Assembly: GCF_024713975.1 (NCBI RefSeq)
Contig: NC_091110.1
Coordinates: 18,071,501 to 18,135,500 of the forward strand
Direction: 5' to 3'
Length of the DNA stretch: 64,000 bases
Source of the DNA: Paralichthys olivaceus
Taxonomy: Eukaryota; Chordata; Actinopteri; Pleuronectiformes; Paralichthyidae
Shown: piece by piece, positions 2,554-59,129 of the stretch
Numbering within the stretch: the stretch's first letter is position 1
Layout of the letters: the number at the start of each line of letters is the position of its first letter
Made by a program: the position numbers and the translations under genes
The notes under the pieces: model-generated
What the model was told of the DNA's origin: nothing
Database searches by the model: none
Seen by the model: the letters and a program-made list of their open reading frames with translations, nothing else

Positions 2554-3661
2554 ATGAATTATACAAGGTGGGTTCATTTGATTGTTTCCTTTCTGGCAGA
2601 AGTTGAAATATGTGCAATGACTCTGTGTGGGTGTGACTGTAGATCTTATTTTAACCCTGTCATGCTTCGTCTTCAGAGTTCTCCATGCCTTTGGAGGTCA
2701 CCCCCAGACCGCTGTGATGCCCATTGACCTCGCTAGGTGCCTGAGCCTCAGTCGGCGCCAGCCTCTTCATCCCCTGCCGTCCATGCCTCCTCTGAAACCT
2801 GCACAGCGTTATTGTCAGTCGACCGGCCCTGCGCCCAAGAACAGCCTTCACTCCCCACATTACTCTTCCTCTTCGTCTTCATCCTCATCACAGCCCTCCT
2901 CCACTGCGCCCTCTGAGCCTCGGAGCTGTTTCCGCAGGGACAGCGGCAGTCTGAACAAAAAGCGTGTGGTGTTTGCAGATGCGAAGGGGCTGGCGCTCAC
3001 TGCTGTGCGTCTCTTCATCCCTGAGCCCTCAGCTGCCTCCCCTGCTCTGGTGATGAAACCCTCGCTGGCCAAACTGCAAGGCCAAGAGTTTCGTCTGGGT
3101 TTCCCACAGCCGACGCAGGACCTTAAATCCTTCCTTGCACGTCTGAGAGACTTGCATGTGCAGCTGAGAAGCTGCAACATTTCAGAACACTCCCTGAGAG
3201 GCAAAGTATGCGTCTCACATGAGAGTATTGAGAAGGCCGTGCAGATAAAGTTGACCTTTGACTCTTGGCGGAGCCATCACAACATTCCCTGCACATACCT
3301 GCAGCAGCAGCGCTGTGGCGGCTCCGATGTGAGTGTTTTTACTTTTGACTTGAGTTTACCCCAGAACATTGATCCAAAGGAGAGAATTGAGTTTTGCGTG
3401 TCCTTCAGGCCAGGAGCTGGAACGAAGGCACACTGGGATGACAACAGAGGGCAGAATTATAGGCTGTGCGTGGAAAAAGACGCACCGAACTCAAACCAAG
3501 GCGACGTTAACCGGTTTTACCCGACACTGTCCAAACATCAGCCACCGACTTGGCCGTCACGTGTGTCTCACAGTGTGCAGACCTCTGCTGACCTGCAGTA
3601 TCTTCACAGGAGTTTATCGAGCAGAGTCAGAGAAGAGTGGAAAAACTTTGTGTTCAGCTGA
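2554..3661 (+). CDS. ppp1r3c: Protein phosphatase 1 glycogen-targeting subunit 3C-like (PTG family)
   Basis: The product tethers PP1 catalytic subunit to glycogen, favouring dephosphorylation of glycogen synthase and phosphorylase (known family role; cytosolic glycogen particle). The CDS joins 2554-2567 and 2677-3661, 332 aa. The first piece encodes Met-Asn-Tyr-Thr and two bases of Arg before donor GTGGGT; acceptor CTTCAG precedes 2677, giving the family-typical TR-VLH start. Visible parts: a Val-Met-Pro-Ile-Asp-Leu-Ala block like the vertebrate PPP1R3C N-terminus, a nine-serine run near residues 68-76, the PP1-binding RVxF motif (KKRVVFADAKG, RVVF at 101-104), and a CBM21 carbohydrate-binding domain at about 163-271 ending in WDDNRGQNYRL. 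The KKRVVFADAKGL core fits 3C better than 3B, 3D or 3G; the teleost paralogue (ca/cb or other) is unresolved. Length is close to human PPP1R3C. No ideal poly(A) signal is obvious; ATTAAA at 3843-3848 is a candidate. Confidence 0.88.
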
Positions 3662-5408: not shown

Positions 5409-6132
5409 TTACTGACAACGGTCGCTGGGCAAGTGCTCGTGCTCAGGGATCCAAGGCGACCTGGCGAAACACTCGGCGGCCTTCCTGTCACACTCGCAGA
5501 TGAACATCTCACATTTGTCGTTGTCATCTGAGGAAGAGAGAGAGCACGAGGCGTTTAGGAGCTTATTTCTTCGTCTTTAATAACCTCAAACTCTTGTTGT
5601 CTTGGTGCACTCACTGCCACAGGTGACCGTCCTGCTTGCTTCGTCACAGCTGTAGGAGTAGAACTCGGTGTAGGGGTTGTCGAGGATGGGCCAGCATTCG
5701 TCGTGCTGCATGGCGTCACTATAACACTTGTCGTGCACTTGGCAGCACCTGCAGGTTTGACAACACAAGTGTTCAGAGAGGCCGAAAAGACGTTTGTATG
5801 TCATCATAGCACTGAGCTGAGAGAGTGAATGAATCACGACCTATCCAGTTCGTCCACAGGCGTGCCAGAGCCGCCCTTTCCACAATAGCAGCCGTAGTCA
5901 GCGTAGTCCATAACTGGCCAGCTGTCGGGCATCGTGCACAGCATCATTTGCCTGAACTGGTTGAGCGCCTTGTCGTTGGTAGACACGGCTGAAGCACAAC
6001 AAAGTAGAACGATGAATCAGAGTCAGTTGTCATATTTATCCACAAGGTAAATGGGGAGAAGCTTTTTGTCAAGTCGTACTCACCCACAGAGAGGCCGGCA
6101 GCCAAGAGAACCAGAGAGTGGAGGGTGTTCAT
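5409..6132 (-). CDS. pla2g1b: Pancreatic-type secreted phospholipase A2 (group IB), copy A
   Basis: A secreted calcium-dependent enzyme hydrolysing the sn-2 ester of phospholipids; group IB is a digestive zymogen. Exons on the - strand: 6132-6084, 5988-5841, 5748-5615, 5527-5409, giving 149 aa. Internal introns are GT-AG and phases agree at every junction. Residues 1-17 form a hydrophobic signal peptide. A short propeptide ends in Lys23 before ALNQF, a plausible tryptic activation site as in group IB. The calcium loop is [11 protein letters not shown] (48-58), the active site CCQVHDKCY (67-75) has catalytic His71 and calcium-binding Asp72, and Asp124 in CDRKAA corresponds to Asp99 of the mature enzyme. 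A DNPYT pancreatic-loop segment (89-93) is present. No residue known to be essential is missing. A TATA box lies at 6183-6190. This is the downstream member of a tandem pair with copy B. Confidence 0.92.
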
Positions 6133-6182
6133 CCTGAGAGTCAGAGCTTCAGCCACAGCTCCAGCTCAAAGTTCAGGCCCTC

Positions 6183-6190
6183 TTTATATA
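6183..6190 (-). promoter_or_regulatory. TATA box of pla2g1b copy A
   Basis: TATATAAA on the - strand, about 50 bases upstream of the start codon and conserved in copy B at 8915-8922. Confidence 0.75.
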
Positions 6191-6285
6191 TTGAGCATCG
6201 GGCCGTGTGGCCCCACAGCCGTGTCAGCTGTTAATACTACATAGGGTCGCACGCCTCGCAGCTCCGAGATTCAAATAAGAACCAA

Positions 6286-6313
6286 CATGTGCAAAAAGCA
6301 AGAAAATTTCCCA
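6286..6313 (-). promoter_or_regulatory. Candidate bipartite PTF1-like site of copy A
   Basis: An E-box CATGTG (6286-6291) and a TC-box TTTCCCA (6307-6313), read on the + strand, are 21 bp apart start to start. PTF1, the acinar-pancreas factor, is known to bind an E-box and a TC-box one or two helical turns apart. The site is about 100-120 bp upstream of the TATA box. Function is inferred. Confidence 0.4.
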
Positions 6314-7012
6314 CGCACTTCTTTGTGAAGTCATAGCTCAGAAGCTCAAACAGACGCTGTGAACAAGGGATAGAGAGGATTGATAATGTCGGCCTTTGAC
6401 TTTATTTGTAAAATTTTGATTTCTTAAAGTAGCTAATTCTCTGAAAAAGAACTTAACATCTCTAGAATAGCCCGTTTATTGTGCTGTGTTATAACTAAAG
6501 AAAAATAAATAAATAAAAAAAGGAACATATATGAATAATAAGTGGGGTTCTTTATCTTAAAGTTATATTTTTTTCTTCCTTCCTCCGTCTCCCTTCCTGA
6601 TTTTTTCCAAAAACAATATTAATTTTGTTCCCTCTTCCGTCTCACATCAAATGTTTTAGCTACAACTTCTTTATCTCCATTTAATAAATGTCATTATTTG
6701 CTTTCTTCCATTCGCTCTGCTGCATTTAGAAACCTGAGAGGAAAAAGGTCACTTTTCTTAATATTCTGAACAGATACTTTTCATTTTATTGAGAGAGGCC
6801 GCAACAATATACAGAGAAATAATTACTCCTCAGAGGTTTCCAACTGATTTACGACGTCTTTTACGTTATTTATTCCAGTACTGCTGCAAAACAGGACGGG
6901 GAAAATTATACAGGAGTGTGGTTAGCTGTTCTCATCCAAGTTTCATTGGAGATATGACAAAAAGTAATGCATTATAATTCGTATGTATTCTACACAATCA
7001 TGGGTCAGGAGG

Positions 7013-7590
7013 CTGGGGACCTATGAGAGAGACAGATGACTCCAGCCTCCAATGTTTGCATTACTCTGCATATTCATGTCGTAACATCATGTGCAAAAAG
7101 AGAGATAACAAACTTTACATTGGAACTTTCCAGCATAAGTATGGAGACGTGGAAAATCCCGAACGACAAACTTACATCTTGGATGATATGAAGAGGACGA
7201 TAACAGTGGAGGGCAATATTTGCTTTTAAAGTGTGTAAAACTTAATTAACGTCATCAAAGTCTTTTCTTTCTTCTTCCTATTCAGGTAGTTGTTTGAATA
7301 TTCAAAATCAGATAAAAGTAAATTAAAACAATATATTTTTATATTTTCTTATATAATCATAAAGCAAAGACATAAATCACTTGTTTGGGCTGCTACACCT
7401 CCATCAGTCACTCCATTCTCTCTGTTTTCATCAACTAATTACAGAAGTCTTCTCCACAGTCTTTGTCGGTGTCTTTGGTTCTGAGTGAAGTTCATTTCCC
7501 CACTTTTCTTCCAACTGTTTCTTGTAGTCTGAGGCTGTGTGTACATTTTAAGTTTCAAACATTTCAGAAGCCACTGTCTGAGTTTATTAC

Positions 7591-7618
<28 letters not shown>
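7013..7618. other. Unique spacer between the duplication units
   Basis: About 600 bp between units A and B with no coding similarity. It ends in an AT dinucleotide array that abuts the start of unit B. Confidence 0.6.
7590..7617. repeat. (AT)n microsatellite at the duplication junction
   Basis: Fourteen or so AT units immediately precede the first base of homology between the two duplication units. Confidence 0.85.
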
Positions 7619-11705: not shown

Positions 11706-14700
11706 TCAGATGGGCTTATATAGTAAGGTGGTGACGTACTTCTTCTTGTAGCGATGTGTCGCACTGAGCACCATCACCCCATCCTGTGAGACGAAAACAA
11801 TGAAAGAAGAAAACAATGAAATTCATGCTGGCAGTTTAAATGCACAGTGGCACAATGATATCGGGTTTACCATGTGCAGCATAGCGATACATACTGTAAT
11901 GGACATTTTTAAACTGTTTTACCTGAATATGCTCAGTGAGTTTAGTTAAAGTCTTCTAATTTAGTATTATGCTCTACTCGGAATGTTTGCTTACGAGTTC
12001 TACAGAGGGAATGTTTGTGTAGTGTGAACTGTTTGATCAAATGTGTTTGCACGCTTAGGACAGAGAGATCAACGTCCACCTCTTTCACCATGCAGCATGT
12101 TGCAGGACAGACGACGTGGCAGAGGACAGCTGTGCGTTTCAAACCTTCTCGTCATAAGAGATATACTTTAGATTCTGGAGCCTGTGGTGGCTTTAAGAAC
12201 TCTGTCCCTATTTGGCCGAATAGTAACTCTCTAACCTTGTACGTGTTTAACATTGTCTGCGTAATTTTGCTTCTCGATCAGTATTAACTGCCTTGAAACT
12301 CGGTTGAGCGTTGATTTGATCATTCAGCGTTCCAGGGGATTAAAAGCAAATTCCCACCACAGAGATTAGTGGGAGTGCCGCCCACTAACTCAACGACCTG
12401 CTCTGCTCACTAATCTCCATCAACAGTCAGGAAATGAGATGTCTGCCACCACTGTGTTACTGTTCTGACGTTCATAGTAAGAGACTTGATTGTTTTTGCT
12501 GTGGTGTCACACTATCACCTCCCTGCAGCTCGTCACTGAAACAGGCAGGGAAACACAAAGTGGAAATTTTATTATGAAACGCAATTTGGTGACTTTGGAA
12601 GCCAGTTGCTTTAGTTTGAACCGAGACAACCACAGCAGCAGATGAACCTATTATGGGATTCCCCCCTGCTGTCTATATTTATTTATAACTTAGTTTGTTT
12701 ATCCTGTGTCAAATTGTTGGAATCATCTGTCCTTGAGCTCCCCTGACAGGAGTTTGTTATTATCACACGTTACTCTATTGAAATGATAATAAATAAAAAG
12801 TTTTCCAACATTTCAGCAGCTGAATCATTGTTCTTGTGTGATTCGGTCACATTGGGCTCTTACCTTAATGGACAGAGCATAGAGGTGGTTGAGCATGACA
12901 TGGTTGGGCTCTGGGAGTAAAGCAGGATCACACTGAAAAGGAAATGTGAAAAGAAAAACGTAAAAAAATACATAATTCCAAAACAGACATGATTTATCCT
13001 TAAATTTTTTATTTTCTTCTCTGTCTCATTTTAACTTTTTATCAGGCACTTGCAGTTTAATTTCACTTTAAAAAACAAAACAAAAACCTAACTGCATCAC
13101 AGCCACTTACAGAAATCCCAGTGTCTTTGTTGAGGATGACCTGTAGTAGGTGTGGAGGGAGAATGGGCGGAGACTTGAACTTCTCTTCCTGTTTCGGAAT
13201 ATAGGCGTCCTGATGATATGGCCCGGGAGGGGAGCTGGAGAGGTCTGATTGAGGAATGGAAGGAGAGTAAAGAAAGGGCGATATGGTTTAACTGAAACAG
13301 GAAACGAATTGTTTTACAACATCCACACAGAAACTGACATCTCTGCGTTAGTTCACACAATAAAACTAATTTCAAAGTTTGGATTTCTGACTGGATTTAT
13401 ATTTTATGATGTTTACTTGCAGCCCAAATATAAGAATACACAGAGCCGGTTTTGTACAGTTTTCCACACCCATTTCATCAACCTGTACTCTGCATCAGTG
13501 GGTCTAGCCGCTGTCAGCACTCACCTGACATGTCAGAACATTTCTGCGAGTCCACCATCAGAGCGTCAAACACCTCAAAGTCGGTTTTCTTCACCTGGAT
13601 GATGTTGTTGACTGTGCCGAGCTGGCTGGTTACAACCGGCTGTGAGGAAACAACAGATTCACAAATGAAGCTCAAAAGCATCCAGAAGACAAAAAAACAA
13701 TTCAATGTGCAAGATATCAAATTGTCCACAAACGTGCCAAGTTTACATGATGTGTGGCATTTTTTACATTTGATTTGAAAGTATTTCCTTGCAGCAAAGA
13801 GATTCTCATTGTCTTTATCAAAACTGGATCATAGGCCTCACTCAGATCATTGGTTGCAGTCAAAATTAAAAACCCATAATCTCCAAAATGCAACTTTCAA
13901 CCAAGCAAACACTACTTTAACACATTTATTTACACATGTTGATGGTAAAAGTTAAAGGACGTTAAAGACGGAATGTCCAGCTCACATAAAGAAAGCGTCT
14001 ATGTGAAATGTAGCGGGGAAATCCCAGCTGCAACATGGTCTCTAGTTGGATATTGACAGATAGAAGCTTGTTTTTAAAAACCAGTGTATGATAATGAGTA
14101 TAATCACTGACCTCAGTTGGGTCGTGGGTCCACTGACCATCTACATAAAACTTGTACTGATGCTCCCCCTCAGGCAGATCGACAATGGCCACAAAGGTGT
14201 TTTGACTTTGATAGAAGACAGGGGAGAACATTTGGTAAAGAGGTGAGTGGACAGAGTGACTTCTCTTTGAATCTTCATCCTCATGAATAAAATGTTTTCC
14301 CTCTGATTAAGTAAATTGAATTTTAATAATAATAATGGAACGTTCTAACAATGGTATTCATAAAACATCAGCTGTTCAATGGATGACACTCAAAGCAATG
14401 CTCTTTGATTGTTTGCTAGCTTCAATGAGAAATGGTAAACCATATCGTTTCAAACATCTATAAATGAGGGTTACAAGAGTTCGAGTTATACCCTCACCTT
14501 CTAATAAGTGGTATCTTGTTGGCCCAGTTGTTAAAGGACCCAGAGAGAAAGACCTCTTTGCCATCTCCAGTCCAGCGAAAGACTGTTGGTCTGTCTAAAG
14601 TTGGACCTTTGTCTTCTGCTTCTAAGTCTTGCTGCCACGCAAGAAACTCCTCTTTCTCTAAAGGAGCCTGAAATATCAATCACAAAACCACCATTAAGGC

Positions 14701-22947: not shown

Positions 22948-34841
<11,894 letters not shown>

Positions 34842-54884: not shown

Positions 54885-54889
54885 GCAAC
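54885..54889. repeat. Target-site duplication, left
   Basis: GCAAC directly abuts the left LTR. The same five bases abut the right LTR at 59125-59129. Confidence 0.85.
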
Positions 54890-55482
54890 TGTCAGGGTTC
54901 GAATGGGGGGTGACGTGAGAAGGGGAGGACCAAAACGCAGAAACTAAATAAGGTTTAACAAAAAGTGTATTTTATTTAACAGGGGTAAACTTAACAAAAG
55001 AAATCTCCAAGAAACAAAAGTCGCACTCATGAAACAGGAGTGGAACACAGGAAGGACAGGAAACAAACTTACGGGGAAACGTGACGAGAGCTGACAGGAT
55101 ACATGAACAGACAGAACCAGAATTGAGCTGATGGACAGGACTGACCCGAAATGACGATGACGAACCAACAACCACATGGGGGAAACACAAAGACTTATAT
55201 ACAGACTGGAACTAATGAGTAACTGGGGACAGGTGGCACAAGACAAACAGGTGAACCTGATGAGGGCAGGAAGTAAACAGGTGAAAACACACAGGGAGCA
55301 AGGACTATAAAATAAAACAGGAAGCACTGAACAAACTTATCAACGAGAACAAAATACAATAACCAAGACAGGGATGAACACAGGAGAGGGACACAGAGCA
55401 ACACAGGAGAATCACCGGGTGGAACATAGCGAGGGACGAGGGGAACACAGGAGAGGGACAATGAAAATACAAAACTGTGACA
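54890..55482 (-). repeat. 3' LTR (element sense)
   Basis: 593 bp, nearly identical to 58531-59124. By eye the only differences are one base in a G run and one T/C substitution (ACTATAAAAT against ACTACAAAAT). AATAAA on the - strand is at 54976-54971. The long ORF runs 71 bases into this LTR before its stop codon at 55414-55412. Confidence 0.93.
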
Positions 55483-58400
55483 GAACCTCCCCCTTAAGGA
55501 CCGGATTCCAGACGGTCCAAAACTGAATTAAAACAAGGACTAAACCTGAAACTGAGAGGGGTGGGAGGAGGGTGGGAATCTGGAACAGAGCACGGGGCTC
55601 GACCCGGAGGCCAGTCAAAGTCAGAGCACGGGGCTCGGGCGGGCGACCCGGAGGCCGGTCAGAAACTGACCCCGGGGGCTCGGGCGGGCGGCCCGGAGGC
55701 CGGTCAGAAACTGAGCCCGGGGGCTCAGGCGGGCGGCCCGGAGGCCGGTCAGAAACAGAGCCCGGGGGCTCGGGCGGGCGGCCCGGAGGCCGATCAGAAA
55801 CAGAGCCCAGGGGCTCAGGGAAAATCAGCTGCTTCTGCAGTCCAGTCAAAGGAAGTTCTGGGGAAGATAGCAGCTGGGGCTGCTGCTGTGACACAGAAGG
55901 CTCTGGAGAAGATAGCAGCTGAGGCTGCTGCTGTGACACAGGAGGCACTGGAGAAGATAGCAGCTGAGGCTGCTGCTGTGACACAGGAGGCTCTGGAGAA
56001 GATAGCAGCTGAGGCTGCTGCTGTGACACAGGAGGTTCTGGAGAAGATAGCAGCTGAGGCTGCTGCTGTGACACAGGAGGCTCGGGAGAAGATAGCAGCT
56101 GAGGCTGCTGCTGTGACACAGGAGGCTCGGGAGAAGATAGCAGCTGAGGCTGCTGCTGTGACACAGGAGGCTCGGGAGAAGATAGCAGCTGACGCTGAGG
56201 TCGACACTCAGGAGGAGATGACCGATGACGCTGCTGTCGCTGTCCCGGAGAAGACGACAGCTGCCGTCGCTGCACCGGAGGAGACGACAGCGACCGCCGC
56301 CCCAGCTGTGCCGGCGCCAGCCTAACCCTCGACCGTGGGACAGGAACAGGAACTGAAACGGAGCCCGGCGAGACCCGCAACCGTGGAACAGGAACAGGAA
56401 CTGAAGCGGAGCCAGGCGAGACCCGCATCCGTGGGACAGGAACAGGAACAGGAACTGAAGCGGAGCCAGGCGAGACCCGCAACCGTGGAACAGGAACAGG
56501 AACTGAAGCGGAGCCAGGCGAGACCCGCATCCGTGGGACAGGAACAGGAACAGGAACTGAAGCGGAGCCAGGCGAGACCCGCATCCGTGGGACCGGAACC
56601 GGAACTGAAGCGGAGCCAGGCGAGACCCGCATCCGTGGAACAGGAACAGGAACTGAAGCGGAGCCCGGCGAGACCCGCAACCGTGGAACAGGAACAGGAA
56701 CTGAAGCGGAGCCCGGCGAGACCCGCATCCGTGGGACAGGAACAGGAACTGAAACGGAGCCCGGCGAGACCCGCAACCGTGGAACAGGAACAGGAACTGA
56801 AGCGGAGCCAGGCGAGACCCGCATCCGTGGGACAGGAACAGGAACAGGAACTGAAGCGGAGCCAGGCGAGACCCGCATCCGTGGGACAGGAACAGGAGAG
56901 CTGCTCGCCGTAACCCTCAGCCGAGGGACAGGAACTGGCGAGACGACTGCTTGAACCCCCGACCGTGGGGCAGGAACTGGAGAGCCGCTCGCCGTAACCC
57001 TCAGCCGAGGGACAGGAACAGGAACTGGAGAGCTGCTCGCCGCAACCCTCAGCCGAGGGACAGGAACTGGCGAGACGACTGCTTGAACCCCCAAACGTGG
57101 GGCAGGAACAGGAACTGGAGAGCCGCTCGCCGTAACCCTCAGCCGAGGGACAGGAACTGGCGAGACGACTGCTTGAACCCCCGACCGTGGGGCAGGAACA
57201 GGAACTGGAGAGCCGCTCGCCGTAACCCTCAGCCGAGGGGCAGGAACTGGCGAGACGACTGCTTGAACCCCCGACCGTGGGGCAGGAACAGGAACTGGAC
57301 AGCCGCTCGCCGTAACCCTCAGCCGAGGGACAGGAACTGGCGAGACGACTGCTTGAACCCCCGACCGTGGGGCAGGAACAGGAACTGAAGCGGAGCCAGG
57401 CGAGACCCGCAACCGTGGAACAGGAACAGGAACTGAAGCGGAGCCCGGCGAGACCCGCAACCGTGGAACAGGAACAGGAGAGCTGCTCGCCGTAACCTTC
57501 AGCCGAGGGACAGGAACTGGCGAGACGACTGCTTGAACCCCCCACCGTGGGGCAGGAACAGGAACTGGAGAGCCGCTCGCCGTAACCCTCAGCCGAGGGA
57601 CAGGAACTGGCGAGACGACTGCTTGAACCCCCGACCGTGGGGCAGGAACAGGAACGGCGACCTCCGAAACCGGAACGTGGGTAGCATCTGCCGGGATCCC
57701 CGACGCCGGAACATGAGTGACGTCAGCCGGGACCCCCGACGCTGGAACGTGGGTAGCATCTGCCGGGATCCCCGACGCCGGAACATGAGTGACGTCAGCC
57801 GGGACCCCCGACGCTGGAACGTGGGTAGCATCTGCCGGGATCCCCGACGCCGGAACATGAGTGACGTCAGCCGGGACCCCCGACGCTGGAACGTGGGTAG
57901 CATCTGCCGGGATCCCCGACGCCGGAACATGAGTGACGTCAGCCGGGACCCCCGACGCTGGAACGTGGGTAGCATCTGCCGGGATCCCCGACGCCGGAAC
58001 ATGAGTGACGTCAGCCGGGACCCCCGACGCTGGAACGTGGGTAGCATCTGCCGGGATCCCCGACGCCGGAACATGAGTGACGTCAGCCGGGACCCCCGAC
58101 GCTGGAACGTGGGTTGCTTCTGCCAGAATCCACGATATTCCGAATTGAGGTTGCTGCCTGTTAACTGGTGGAGATGGATGGAAACTGAGTGAGGGGGCTC
58201 CCCTCCGGCGCCCGCCCCGCGCCGTAGCGTTTCTACGCAGACTACGGGGGCCACCAAAAGCCAGGCGGGTGCCGAGGTAGGGATCTGCAGGGGGAGTTGG
58301 GGATGAGAGGATGTCCTGTAGTCTCCTCTCTACGGTCACCAGGTGCGGGACAAAGTGGCTGACCCAGGGTCTGTCCTTAAGCCAATCCCGCACCGATGCC

Positions 58401-58513
58401 ATTTTCTCCAGGAGCTCTTCACGCTCCTTGGTGCCTGCGGTGCTCAGCTCCTCCACCAGTGAGTCAAAATAAAAAACCTTCCTATAAAAAACATAAAGCT
58501 CTGCTTGGTCCAT
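55412..58513 (-). CDS. LTR-element ORF: hyper-repetitive Pro/Ser/Val-rich protein, function unknown
   Basis: 1033 aa, starting 17 nt inside the 5' LTR boundary with MDQAELYVFYRK. Residues 1-85 are unique and helical-looking (a charged EELLEKM segment, then HLVTVERRLQDIL), followed by an Arg/Gly-rich basic patch at about 93-106. The rest is tandem repeats, in order: six units of a 24-residue ATHVPASG/VPAD or IPAD repeat; about 30-residue units alternating VPVPAPRSGVQAVVSP with VPRLRVTASGSP; 14-18-residue units of VPVPRMRVSPGSAS; about seven 15-residue units of PPVSQQQPQLLSSPE; and four of PPGSVSDRPPGRPPE. I recognise no catalytic, zinc-knuckle or membrane motif. By position it is where gag would be. 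It could be a derived gag-like structural protein, a captured host exon, or translationally inert. The uninterrupted frame may partly reflect repeat units of 3n length. Confidence 0.6.
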   Translation of the reverse strand: MDQAELYVFYRKVFYFDSLVEELSTAGTKEREELLEKMASVRDWLKDRPWVSHFVPHLVTVERRLQDILSSPTPPADPYLGTRLAFGGPRSLRRNATARGGRRRGAPSLSFHPSPPVNRQQPQFGISWILAEATHVPASGVPADVTHVPASGIPADATHVPASGVPADVTHVPASGIPADATHVPASGVPADVTHVPASGIPADATHVPASGVPADVTHVPASGIPADATHVPASGVPADVTHVPASGIPADATHVPASGVPADVTHVPASGIPADATHVPVSEVAVPVPAPRSGVQAVVSPVPVPRLRVTASGSPVPVPAPRWGVQAVVSPVPVPRLKVTASSSPVPVPRLRVSPGSASVPVPVPRLRVSPGSASVPVPAPRSGVQAVVSPVPVPRLRVTASGCPVPVPAPRSGVQAVVSPVPAPRLRVTASGSPVPVPAPRSGVQAVVSPVPVPRLRVTASGSPVPVPAPRLGVQAVVSPVPVPRLRVAASSSPVPVPVPRLRVTASGSPVPAPRSGVQAVVSPVPVPRLRVTASSSPVPVPRMRVSPGSASVPVPVPVPRMRVSPGSASVPVPVPRLRVSPGSVSVPVPVPRMRVSPGSASVPVPVPRLRVSPGSASVPVPVPRMRVSPGSASVPVPVPRMRVSPGSASVPVPVPVPRMRVSPGSASVPVPVPRLRVSPGSASVPVPVPVPRMRVSPGSASVPVPVPRLRVSPGSVSVPVPVPRSRVRLAPAQLGRRSLSSPPVQRRQLSSSPGQRQQRHRSSPPECRPQRQLLSSPEPPVSQQQPQLLSSPEPPVSQQQPQLLSSPEPPVSQQQPQLLSSPEPPVSQQQPQLLSSPEPPVSQQQPQLLSSPVPPVSQQQPQLLSSPEPSVSQQQPQLLSSPELPLTGLQKQLIFPEPLGSVSDRPPGRPPEPPGSVSDRPPGRPPEPPGSVSDRPPGRPPEPPGSVSDRPPGRPPEPRALTLTGLRVEPRALFQIPTLLPPLSVSGLVLVLIQFWTVWNPVLKGEVLSQFCIFIVPLLCSPRPSLCSTR
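55627..55820 (-). repeat. 45-bp minisatellite, about four units
   Basis: GC-rich units encoding PPGSVSDRPPGRPPE on the - strand, with a few base differences between units. Confidence 0.85.
55855..56205 (-). repeat. 45-bp minisatellite, about seven units
   Basis: Units encoding PPVSQQQPQLLSSPE on the - strand. Several central units are identical or differ by one or two bases. Confidence 0.88.
56325..56905 (-). repeat. 42-54-bp variable minisatellite
   Basis: Units share AGGCGAGACCCGCA and GGAACAGGAACTGAAGC. Length varies by whole GGAACA hexamers, adding Val-Pro pairs without breaking frame. Confidence 0.85.
56905..57640 (-). repeat. About 90-bp minisatellite
   Basis: Units share CTCGCCGTAACCCTCAGCCG and CGAGACGACTGCTTGAACCC. 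A patch of the neighbouring 42-54-bp repeat is embedded at about 57390-57480, suggesting unequal exchange. Confidence 0.85.
57670..58110 (-). repeat. 72-bp minisatellite, six near-identical units
   Basis: Six head-to-tail units appear identical by eye except at the edges. Each encodes a 24-residue VPADVTHVPASG/IPADATHVPASG pair and contains one TGACGTCA octamer (57718, 57790, 57862, 57934, 58006 and 58078). Confidence 0.92.
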
Positions 58514-58530
58514 TACTGGTTGGTTCGTAC

Positions 58531-59124
58531 TGTCAGGGTTCGAATGGGGGGGTGACGTGAGAAGGGGAGGACCAAAACGCAGAAACTAAATAAGGTTTAA
58601 CAAAAAGTGTATTTTATTTAACAGGGGTAAACTTAACAAAAGAAATCTCCAAGAAACAAAAGTCGCACTCATGAAACAGGAGTGGAACACAGGAAGGACA
58701 GGAAACAAACTTACGGGGAAACGTGACGAGAGCTGACAGGATACATGAACAGACAGAACCAGAATTGAGCTGATGGACAGGACTGACCCGAAATGACGAT
58801 GACGAACCAACAACCACATGGGGGAAACACAAAGACTTATATACAGACTGGAACTAATGAGTAACTGGGGACAGGTGGCACAAGACAAACAGGTGAACCT
58901 GATGAGGGCAGGAAGTAAACAGGTGAAAACACACAGGGAGCAAGGACTACAAAATAAAACAGGAAGCACTGAACAAACTTATCAACGAGAACAAAATACA
59001 ATAACCAAGACAGGGATGAACACAGGAGAGGGACACAGAGCAACACAGGAGAATCACCGGGTGGAACATAGCGAGGGACGAGGGGAACACAGGAGAGGGA
59101 CAATGAAAATACAAAACTGTGACA
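58531..59124 (-). repeat. 5' LTR (element sense)
   Basis: 594 bp, the partner of 54890-55482. On the - strand it has TATATAAG (58843-58836) about 220 bases before AATAAA (58618-58613), the order expected for U3-R-U5 transcription and polyadenylation. Confidence 0.93.
58836..58843 (-). promoter_or_regulatory. LTR TATA box
   Basis: TATATAAG on the - strand in the 5' LTR, duplicated in the 3' LTR at 55194-55201. Transcription would be expected to begin about 30 bases downstream. Confidence 0.65.
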
Positions 59125-59129
59125 GCAAC
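59125..59129. repeat. Target-site duplication, right
   Basis: GCAAC, identical to 54885-54889. Confidence 0.85.

Follow-up and report, generated by a model that had tools for sequence, protein, structure and literature searches.

A young, non-autonomous LTR element of Paralichthys olivaceus, probably of the Tf1/sushi kind, with a retained repeat-protein reading frame

TRIM, LARD, and TR-GAG are long terminal repeat (LTR) elements that lack pol and depend on helpers. TRIM and LARD are described as having no long coding frames, and TR-GAG retains gag. Gag-only families aside, polymerase-less elements are usually regarded as living on noncoding signals alone. Here, we examine an element at positions 54890-59124 of a 64,000-nucleotide stretch of Paralichthys olivaceus DNA (contig NC_091110.1, positions 18,071,501 to 18,135,500; hereafter the window). 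We find that it is probably a non-autonomous LTR retrotransposon of the Tf1/sushi kind, self-primed and copied by the enzymes of gag-pol elements elsewhere in the genome. Unlike TRIM, LARD, and TR-GAG, its family keeps a non-gag open reading frame (ORF), which stays open across subfamilies.

In Tf1, Tj1, and vertebrate sushi elements, a self-primer within the LTR is reported to complement a primer site beside the LTR (accessible parts of PMC4600332 and PMC6317226), and the window element is arranged in the same way. Its LTR tips, TGTCACA and CCTGACA, are also like those of this group: as the motifs are given in the accessible part of PMC3601003, the match is to that of the Sushi integrase (TGTYANR, CNTNACA), whereas the rGmr1 motif does not fit. 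Unlike Tf1/sushi elements, it has no gag past the start, and no protease, reverse transcriptase, integrase, or chromodomain; it has instead a repeat protein with no recognized relative. Another comparison is offered by Bhikhari (Bik-1 and Bik-2/crestin), zebrafish non-autonomous LTR families that belong to the lokiretroviruses; solo LTRs make up 337 of the 393 Bik-2 insertions (PMC10996621, accessible part). Bhikhari is like the window element in being recently active, in lacking pol, and in having a single ORF that begins in a helical or coiled-coil region. It is unlike it in encoding a Gag with a capsid domain, and the accessible part of the same report does not mention repeat arrays. Titles and abstract openings in the literature, where most subscription papers lay outside our reach, gave no description of a family like that of the window element.

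The window element is a recently inserted, complete LTR retrotransposon. Its LTRs end in TG..CA and are flanked on both sides by an exact 5-bp duplication (GCAAC); the only differences between them are a single T/C substitution and a one-base length difference in a run of G. This confirms an initial annotation of the window, which had counted about one substitution and one insertion or deletion (indel) between the LTRs over 593 bp and an exact duplication. The coding strand is the minus strand, because the purine tract adjoins the LTR at 54890-55482 and the primer site adjoins the LTR at 58531-59124; these positions rule out the plus-strand orientation. The element and its signals are as follows (nt, nucleotides):

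54890-59124, minus coding strand: whole LTR element, defined by paired LTRs and target duplication
58531-59124, minus strand: 5′ LTR in element sense, 594 bp, TGTCACAG...CCCTGACA
54890-55482, minus strand: 3′ LTR in element sense, 593 bp
54885-54889, no strand: target-site duplication GCAAC, left copy
59125-59129, no strand: target-site duplication GCAAC, right copy
58837-58843, minus strand: TATA box TATATAA, LTR position 282
58802-58811, minus strand: self-primer GTTGGTTCGT, LTR positions 314-323, and predicted 5′ end of the RNA (start inferred from sequence)
58613-58618, minus strand: AATAAA polyadenylation signal, LTR position 507
58519-58528, minus strand: primer-binding site ACGAACCAAC, 2 nt past the 5′ LTR, exact complement of the self-primer
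55483-55495, minus strand: polypurine tract AAGGGGGAGGTTC, adjoining the 3′ LTR

The self-primer lies 32 nt past the TATA box, and its complementarity to the primer site is exact over 10 nt. Among 1000 shuffles, a 10-nt complement never arose in that zone, and one of at least 10 nt arose anywhere in the LTR in 15. In the predicted RNA fold, the 5′ end pairs with the primer site, and the sequence-predicted RNA start at 58811 agrees with the start near 58.81 kb that had been proposed initially. A tRNA primer is disfavored, judging from two points: the bases at the LTR end (GTACGAACC) are not TGG, and the self-complement fits.

This pairing recurs across the family. The exact 10-nt primer/site pair is present at 9 of 15 family loci, and two diverged loci have matched changes in primer and site (L081, 10/10 with one wobble; L078, 8/8). 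When nine primers were set against nine sites, eight paired best with their own. One copy, L018 (C1:2302500-2312400), carries in its 5′ LTR the primer form GTTGGTACGT, as in L078, and in its 3′ LTR GTTGGTTCGT, which fits its primer site; the pattern is as if the two LTRs had recombined.

The sushi elements of the same genome have comparable signals. A search for sushi-type gag (PF16297), in which 150 of 160 candidates were scored, gave 140 matches, seven of them in 1454-codon frames. Of 19 regions upstream of sushi gag, 15 carry a 9-12-nt primer pair of their own, and primer and site vary together across these sushi families as well. The window ORF is like these elements in having an ATG shortly past the primer site and in sharing the gag start codons: the gag start of L052-L054 (ATGGACCCAGCAGAG) and the ORF start (ATGGACCAAGCAGAG) are identical at 14 of 15 bases, the sole match above 12 among 2302 ATG contexts in the window. 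Sushi-type gag extends no further than these first 15 bases, and Pfam finds no pol, and hence no reverse transcriptase, in the element; therefore, its class rests on the noncoding signals and the gag start. Judged from its sequence, the window element appears to work like the Tf1/sushi group and to derive from it, a reading that is well supported. The initial annotation had seen in it the best candidate in the window for an undescribed system. This was not borne out, since two features that it missed, the signals for self-priming and a gag start resembling that of sushi, give the element a class.

Some observations count against this assignment. The pair is mismatched in L023 and in the 5′ LTR of L018, L077 has no pair, L080 could not be scored (all among the 15 family loci), and the L078 primer pairs better with the L081 and window sites than with its own. 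No primer pair was seen in L066, a member of the nearest sushi family. Three of the 14 sushi upstream regions aligned to the LTR (L057, L066, and L064; 19 were fetched and five left out) beat all 60 shuffled LTRs, with an LTR likeness that is weak. Finally, the negative result for a helper comes from exact-pattern searches and from the 40 LTR candidates scored out of 457.

That negative result is as follows. Full-length autonomous relatives sharing the LTR, which the initial annotation would have counted as support, did not appear: exact pattern searches of the genome recognized no autonomous element that combines this LTR end with the primer site and ATG. Three of the 36 sites in the first search lacked an N-terminal match, and none is recognizable as an autonomous relative; L049 is a family copy that lacks the N-terminus, L050 is LTR sequence of the family read on the opposite strand, and L051 has only a 37-base match. 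A second search (35 sites) returned N-terminal loci and the L050 site, and a third (36 sites) added one C18 site, which was left out of the helper check. The nearest relative is the sushi family of L057 and L066, whose likeness to the LTR is weak (alignment z of 4.5 and 5.1). Its primer site (ACGAACTGG in L057, ACGAACCAAC in the window) and its start (ATGGACTCAGC) resemble those of the window element. Unlike the window element, this family has gag and pol, with pieces that match reverse transcriptase, RNase H, integrase, and chromodomain models, and its own primer differs. Frames are broken in both copies seen.

What occupies the interior of the window element is a single ORF and its arrays:

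55412-58513, minus strand: single long ORF, 1033 codons, ATG start, starts ATGGACCAAGCAGAG, stop inside the 3′ LTR
58298-58513, minus strand: N-terminal domain, approximately residues 1-72, with helices at 3-25, 28-46, and 49-70 predicted by single-sequence AlphaFold2
57672-58135, minus strand: array A, 36/72-nt unit, THVPASGxPAD
56324-57660, minus strand: arrays B and C, 42/48/54/90-nt units, PVPAPRxGVQAVV, PRLRVTAS, PRMRVSPGSASV
55850-56197, minus strand: array D, 45-nt unit, EPPVSQQQPQLLSSP
55603-55816, minus strand: array E, 45-nt unit, GSVSDRPPGRPPEPP

That the element encodes only this ORF and no polymerase had been recognized from the start and is confirmed here. The whole ORF matches no Pfam family at E ≤ 10; within Pfam, it contains no remnant of gag, protease, or pol and no match to capsid, DUF4939, Retrotrans_gag, or zinc-knuckle models. 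Residues 1-128 alone gave one Pfam match, to a DGC-associated coil (E 0.31), under its cut-off. For the N-terminus, nothing significant was found among PDB sequences (best E 1.2) or, by fold, in the Foldseek libraries of PDB (best E 0.6) and viral (best E 0.32) structures, and none of the 25 pattern stretches from a viral-contig scan was confirmed. Single-sequence AlphaFold2, which was applied to the N-terminus and not to the arrays, gave block means of the predicted local distance difference test (pLDDT) of 68-90 across residues 1-70 and no structure for residues 71-132. The long tail of the ORF is Pro/Ser-rich and probably disordered.

The helical head could be a diverged sushi Gag N-terminus, in a protein that still assembles with helper capsids. 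Its first codons match sushi gag, three helices are predicted, and the one ORF of Bhikhari likewise begins in a coiled coil (PMC10996621, accessible part). However, the ORF has no Pfam match to the capsid domain that marks gag-only elements, nor to DUF4939 or zinc knuckles; the fold searches gave no significant match; and the likeness of residues 7-75 to seven sushi Gag N-termini does not exceed that of shuffles. We consider such a disguised Gag unlikely.

A degenerate autonomous element, with gag-pol lately deleted and the rest debris, would fit the sushi-like gag start and leader. Deletion derivatives of autonomous elements are common. However, Pfam finds none of the remnants expected of such debris, and copies of this N-terminus occur at many loci, at identities down to 66%. 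This indicates an old structure that spread in its present form, and we hold recent degeneration to be highly improbable.

The wider family was surveyed in the host genome (588 Mb, 25 contigs). From the LTR search, with its 457 first-look candidates, 20 LTR regions were fetched, comprising 8 complete elements with the ORF, 1 broken element (L023), and 11 solo LTRs. Each solo LTR has at least 5 matching flank bases, and L013 and L014 have common flanks. Including the window, there are nine complete copies, all with an exact 5-bp target duplication (in L027, the downstream LTR starts CG) and six with 0-1 LTR substitutions. LTR substitutions and frame lengths in codons are as follows: window, 1/593 and 1033; L009, 1/593 and 1057; L011, 0/594 and 1092; L015, 0/577 and 1175, with AGG where the ATG start is expected; L017, 0/576 and 1165; L018, 18/770 and 900; L026, 1/789 and 628; L027, 15/696 and 435; and L028, 4/790 and 718. 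Several young copies without pol are thus present, and the initial description of a complete, young, non-autonomous element with its sole long ORF at the gag position holds. A second subfamily (L012-L014, L018, and L026-L028) has LTRs of ~700-790 bp that repeat part of their first 107 bases. L026 (on C5) and L028 (on C22) share their flanks, which points to one insertion copied by segmental duplication.

All 76 candidates from a genome search with the N-terminus were scored, yielding 67 matches. Of these, 29 loci span residues 1-128 (one spans 2-128), none with a stop; their frames exceed 400 codons at 23 loci and measure 239-269 codons at 6. The remaining matches are truncated or split. Six of the 67 matches contain stops, and all six fall short of full length. 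On C24, C12, and C16, an older subfamily has a shift near codons 90-100. The many copies with the same N-terminus that the initial annotation had named as support are present, and a one-off locus or assembly chimera is ruled out by the 29 full loci. These are not 29 independent insertions, as several C5 loci and the L026/L028 pair look like duplicates. Older-subfamily N-terminal loci cluster on C24 (3.04-3.46 Mb), and near-identical short-frame copies cluster on C5 (25.76-27.36 Mb); both clusters look like local amplification and not separate insertions. A 16-nt purine-tract/LTR junction occurs at 22 genome sites, of which 21 belong to the family (17 assigned only by their position beside N-terminal matches, 4 by sequence) and 1 is unrelated (L074).

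Across these copies, the frame looks to be under moderate selection. We compared 25 of the 29 N-termini, leaving out four C5 copies, and found no stops and no indels. The window LTR differs from the LTRs of L010, L011, L015, L016, and L017 by 2-8 indels per 14-25 substitutions. The pooled ratio of nonsynonymous to synonymous substitution rates (dN/dS) is 0.55 in the ORF frame and 0.63-1.31 in the five other frames. Neutral simulation on the tree (150 runs at each of three settings, 450 in all) gave a mean dN/dS of 0.84-0.91 (P = 0.013-0.027 for the observed value). It also predicted a stop in 14-15 of 25 copies, where none was observed, and no run out of 450 was free of stops. Among the first 100 residue columns, 52 are invariant across 29 rows. 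Within the window arrays, 22 of 44 distinct changes between units are synonymous, against ~14 expected (P = 0.006-0.014), in a test that kept all units and in which left edges were misaligned. An earlier array test (ratio 0.19) was set aside, as its motif-chosen units were biased towards conservation.

Other results weaken the case for selection. A dN/dS of 0.55 is just moderately low, and single young-copy pairs, on few changes, reach 1.45, or up to 2.76 over the first 80 codons. For the window and L028, two antisense frames (0.67 and 0.68) fall below the ORF frame (0.76). In the array test, the antisense frame that shares wobble positions also passes (17/33 synonymous). Moreover, intact frames were favored because the loci were found by protein similarity. 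Still, a frame disrupted in most copies with dN/dS near 1, the outcome that the initial annotation had set against a used product, is not what we find.

That annotation had left the choice between a product used by the element and repeat arithmetic. In the latter case, unit lengths divisible by three would keep the frame open by chance, and the protein would have no meaning. Open length alone has little meaning here, because other same-strand frames with no gene behind them reach 466 codons in the window arrays and 516 in those of L015; the young pairs with dN/dS above 1 would also suit a meaningless protein. However, the N-terminus, which is not repetitive, lacks a stop at 29 of 29 loci despite the neutral expectation, and the ORF frame is the only one in the window that crosses all five arrays. 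The family data thus favor a used frame (0/29 stops, dN/dS below that of the other frames, no indels in 25), and repeat arithmetic on its own seems quite improbable.

The frame might alternatively be kept for its openness and not for its product: translation along nearly the full RNA would spare an intronless transcript from decay triggered by a long untranslated 3′ tail, so that selection would purge stops and frameshifts and let residues drift. The combination of uninterrupted N-termini with only moderate constraint is in keeping with this. Furthermore, among the nine frames read, the stop falls within the 3′ LTR in six and at the purine tract in three, and between subfamilies the tail residues, and even the tail reading frame, differ. 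Against openness alone stand the pooled dN/dS, lower than in any of the five other frames, the synonymous excess in the array units, and the invariant half of the leading residue columns. We regard this explanation as rather doubtful.

Most likely, though unproven, the ORF product, with its helical head and its tail, works for the element. We judge a product that aids the element to be the likeliest explanation, selection for an open frame alone to be its main rival, and a disguised Gag to come next. Under the Tf1/sushi reading, the RNA would start at 58811, and its first ten bases would fold back to pair with the primer site next to the LTR, where a helper reverse transcriptase would take them as primer. 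The purine tract would start plus-strand synthesis, and a helper integrase would insert the new copy. Past the first codons, an ORF with a predicted helical head and Pro/Ser/Val arrays would have taken the place of gag-pol; its product may, for example, bind the element RNA or the helper particle. Tentatively, the element could be a coding parasite, one that kept the sushi signals, lost gag-pol, and gained a new protein under selection for its product, which serves the spread of the element, for example through capture of helper particles or shielding of the RNA.

The window also contains host coding stretches at 2621-3661 (CBM21; presumably of the protein phosphatase 1 regulatory subunit kind), 13962-14306 (AMPK glycogen-binding domain), and 26848-27201 (a weak EF-hand match under the cut-off). 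Beside the solo LTR of L010, open frames at 6086-7606 may encode a putative hAT-type transposase, which they resemble.

A family with no recognizable gag or pol keeps its frame while it spreads, which suggests that a non-autonomous element may encode something that it needs. The matched primer and site variants within one genome support self-priming in an animal genome on comparative grounds. If the ORF product is functional, the family would offer a way to learn what a trans-mobilized RNA gains from a protein that is not Gag.

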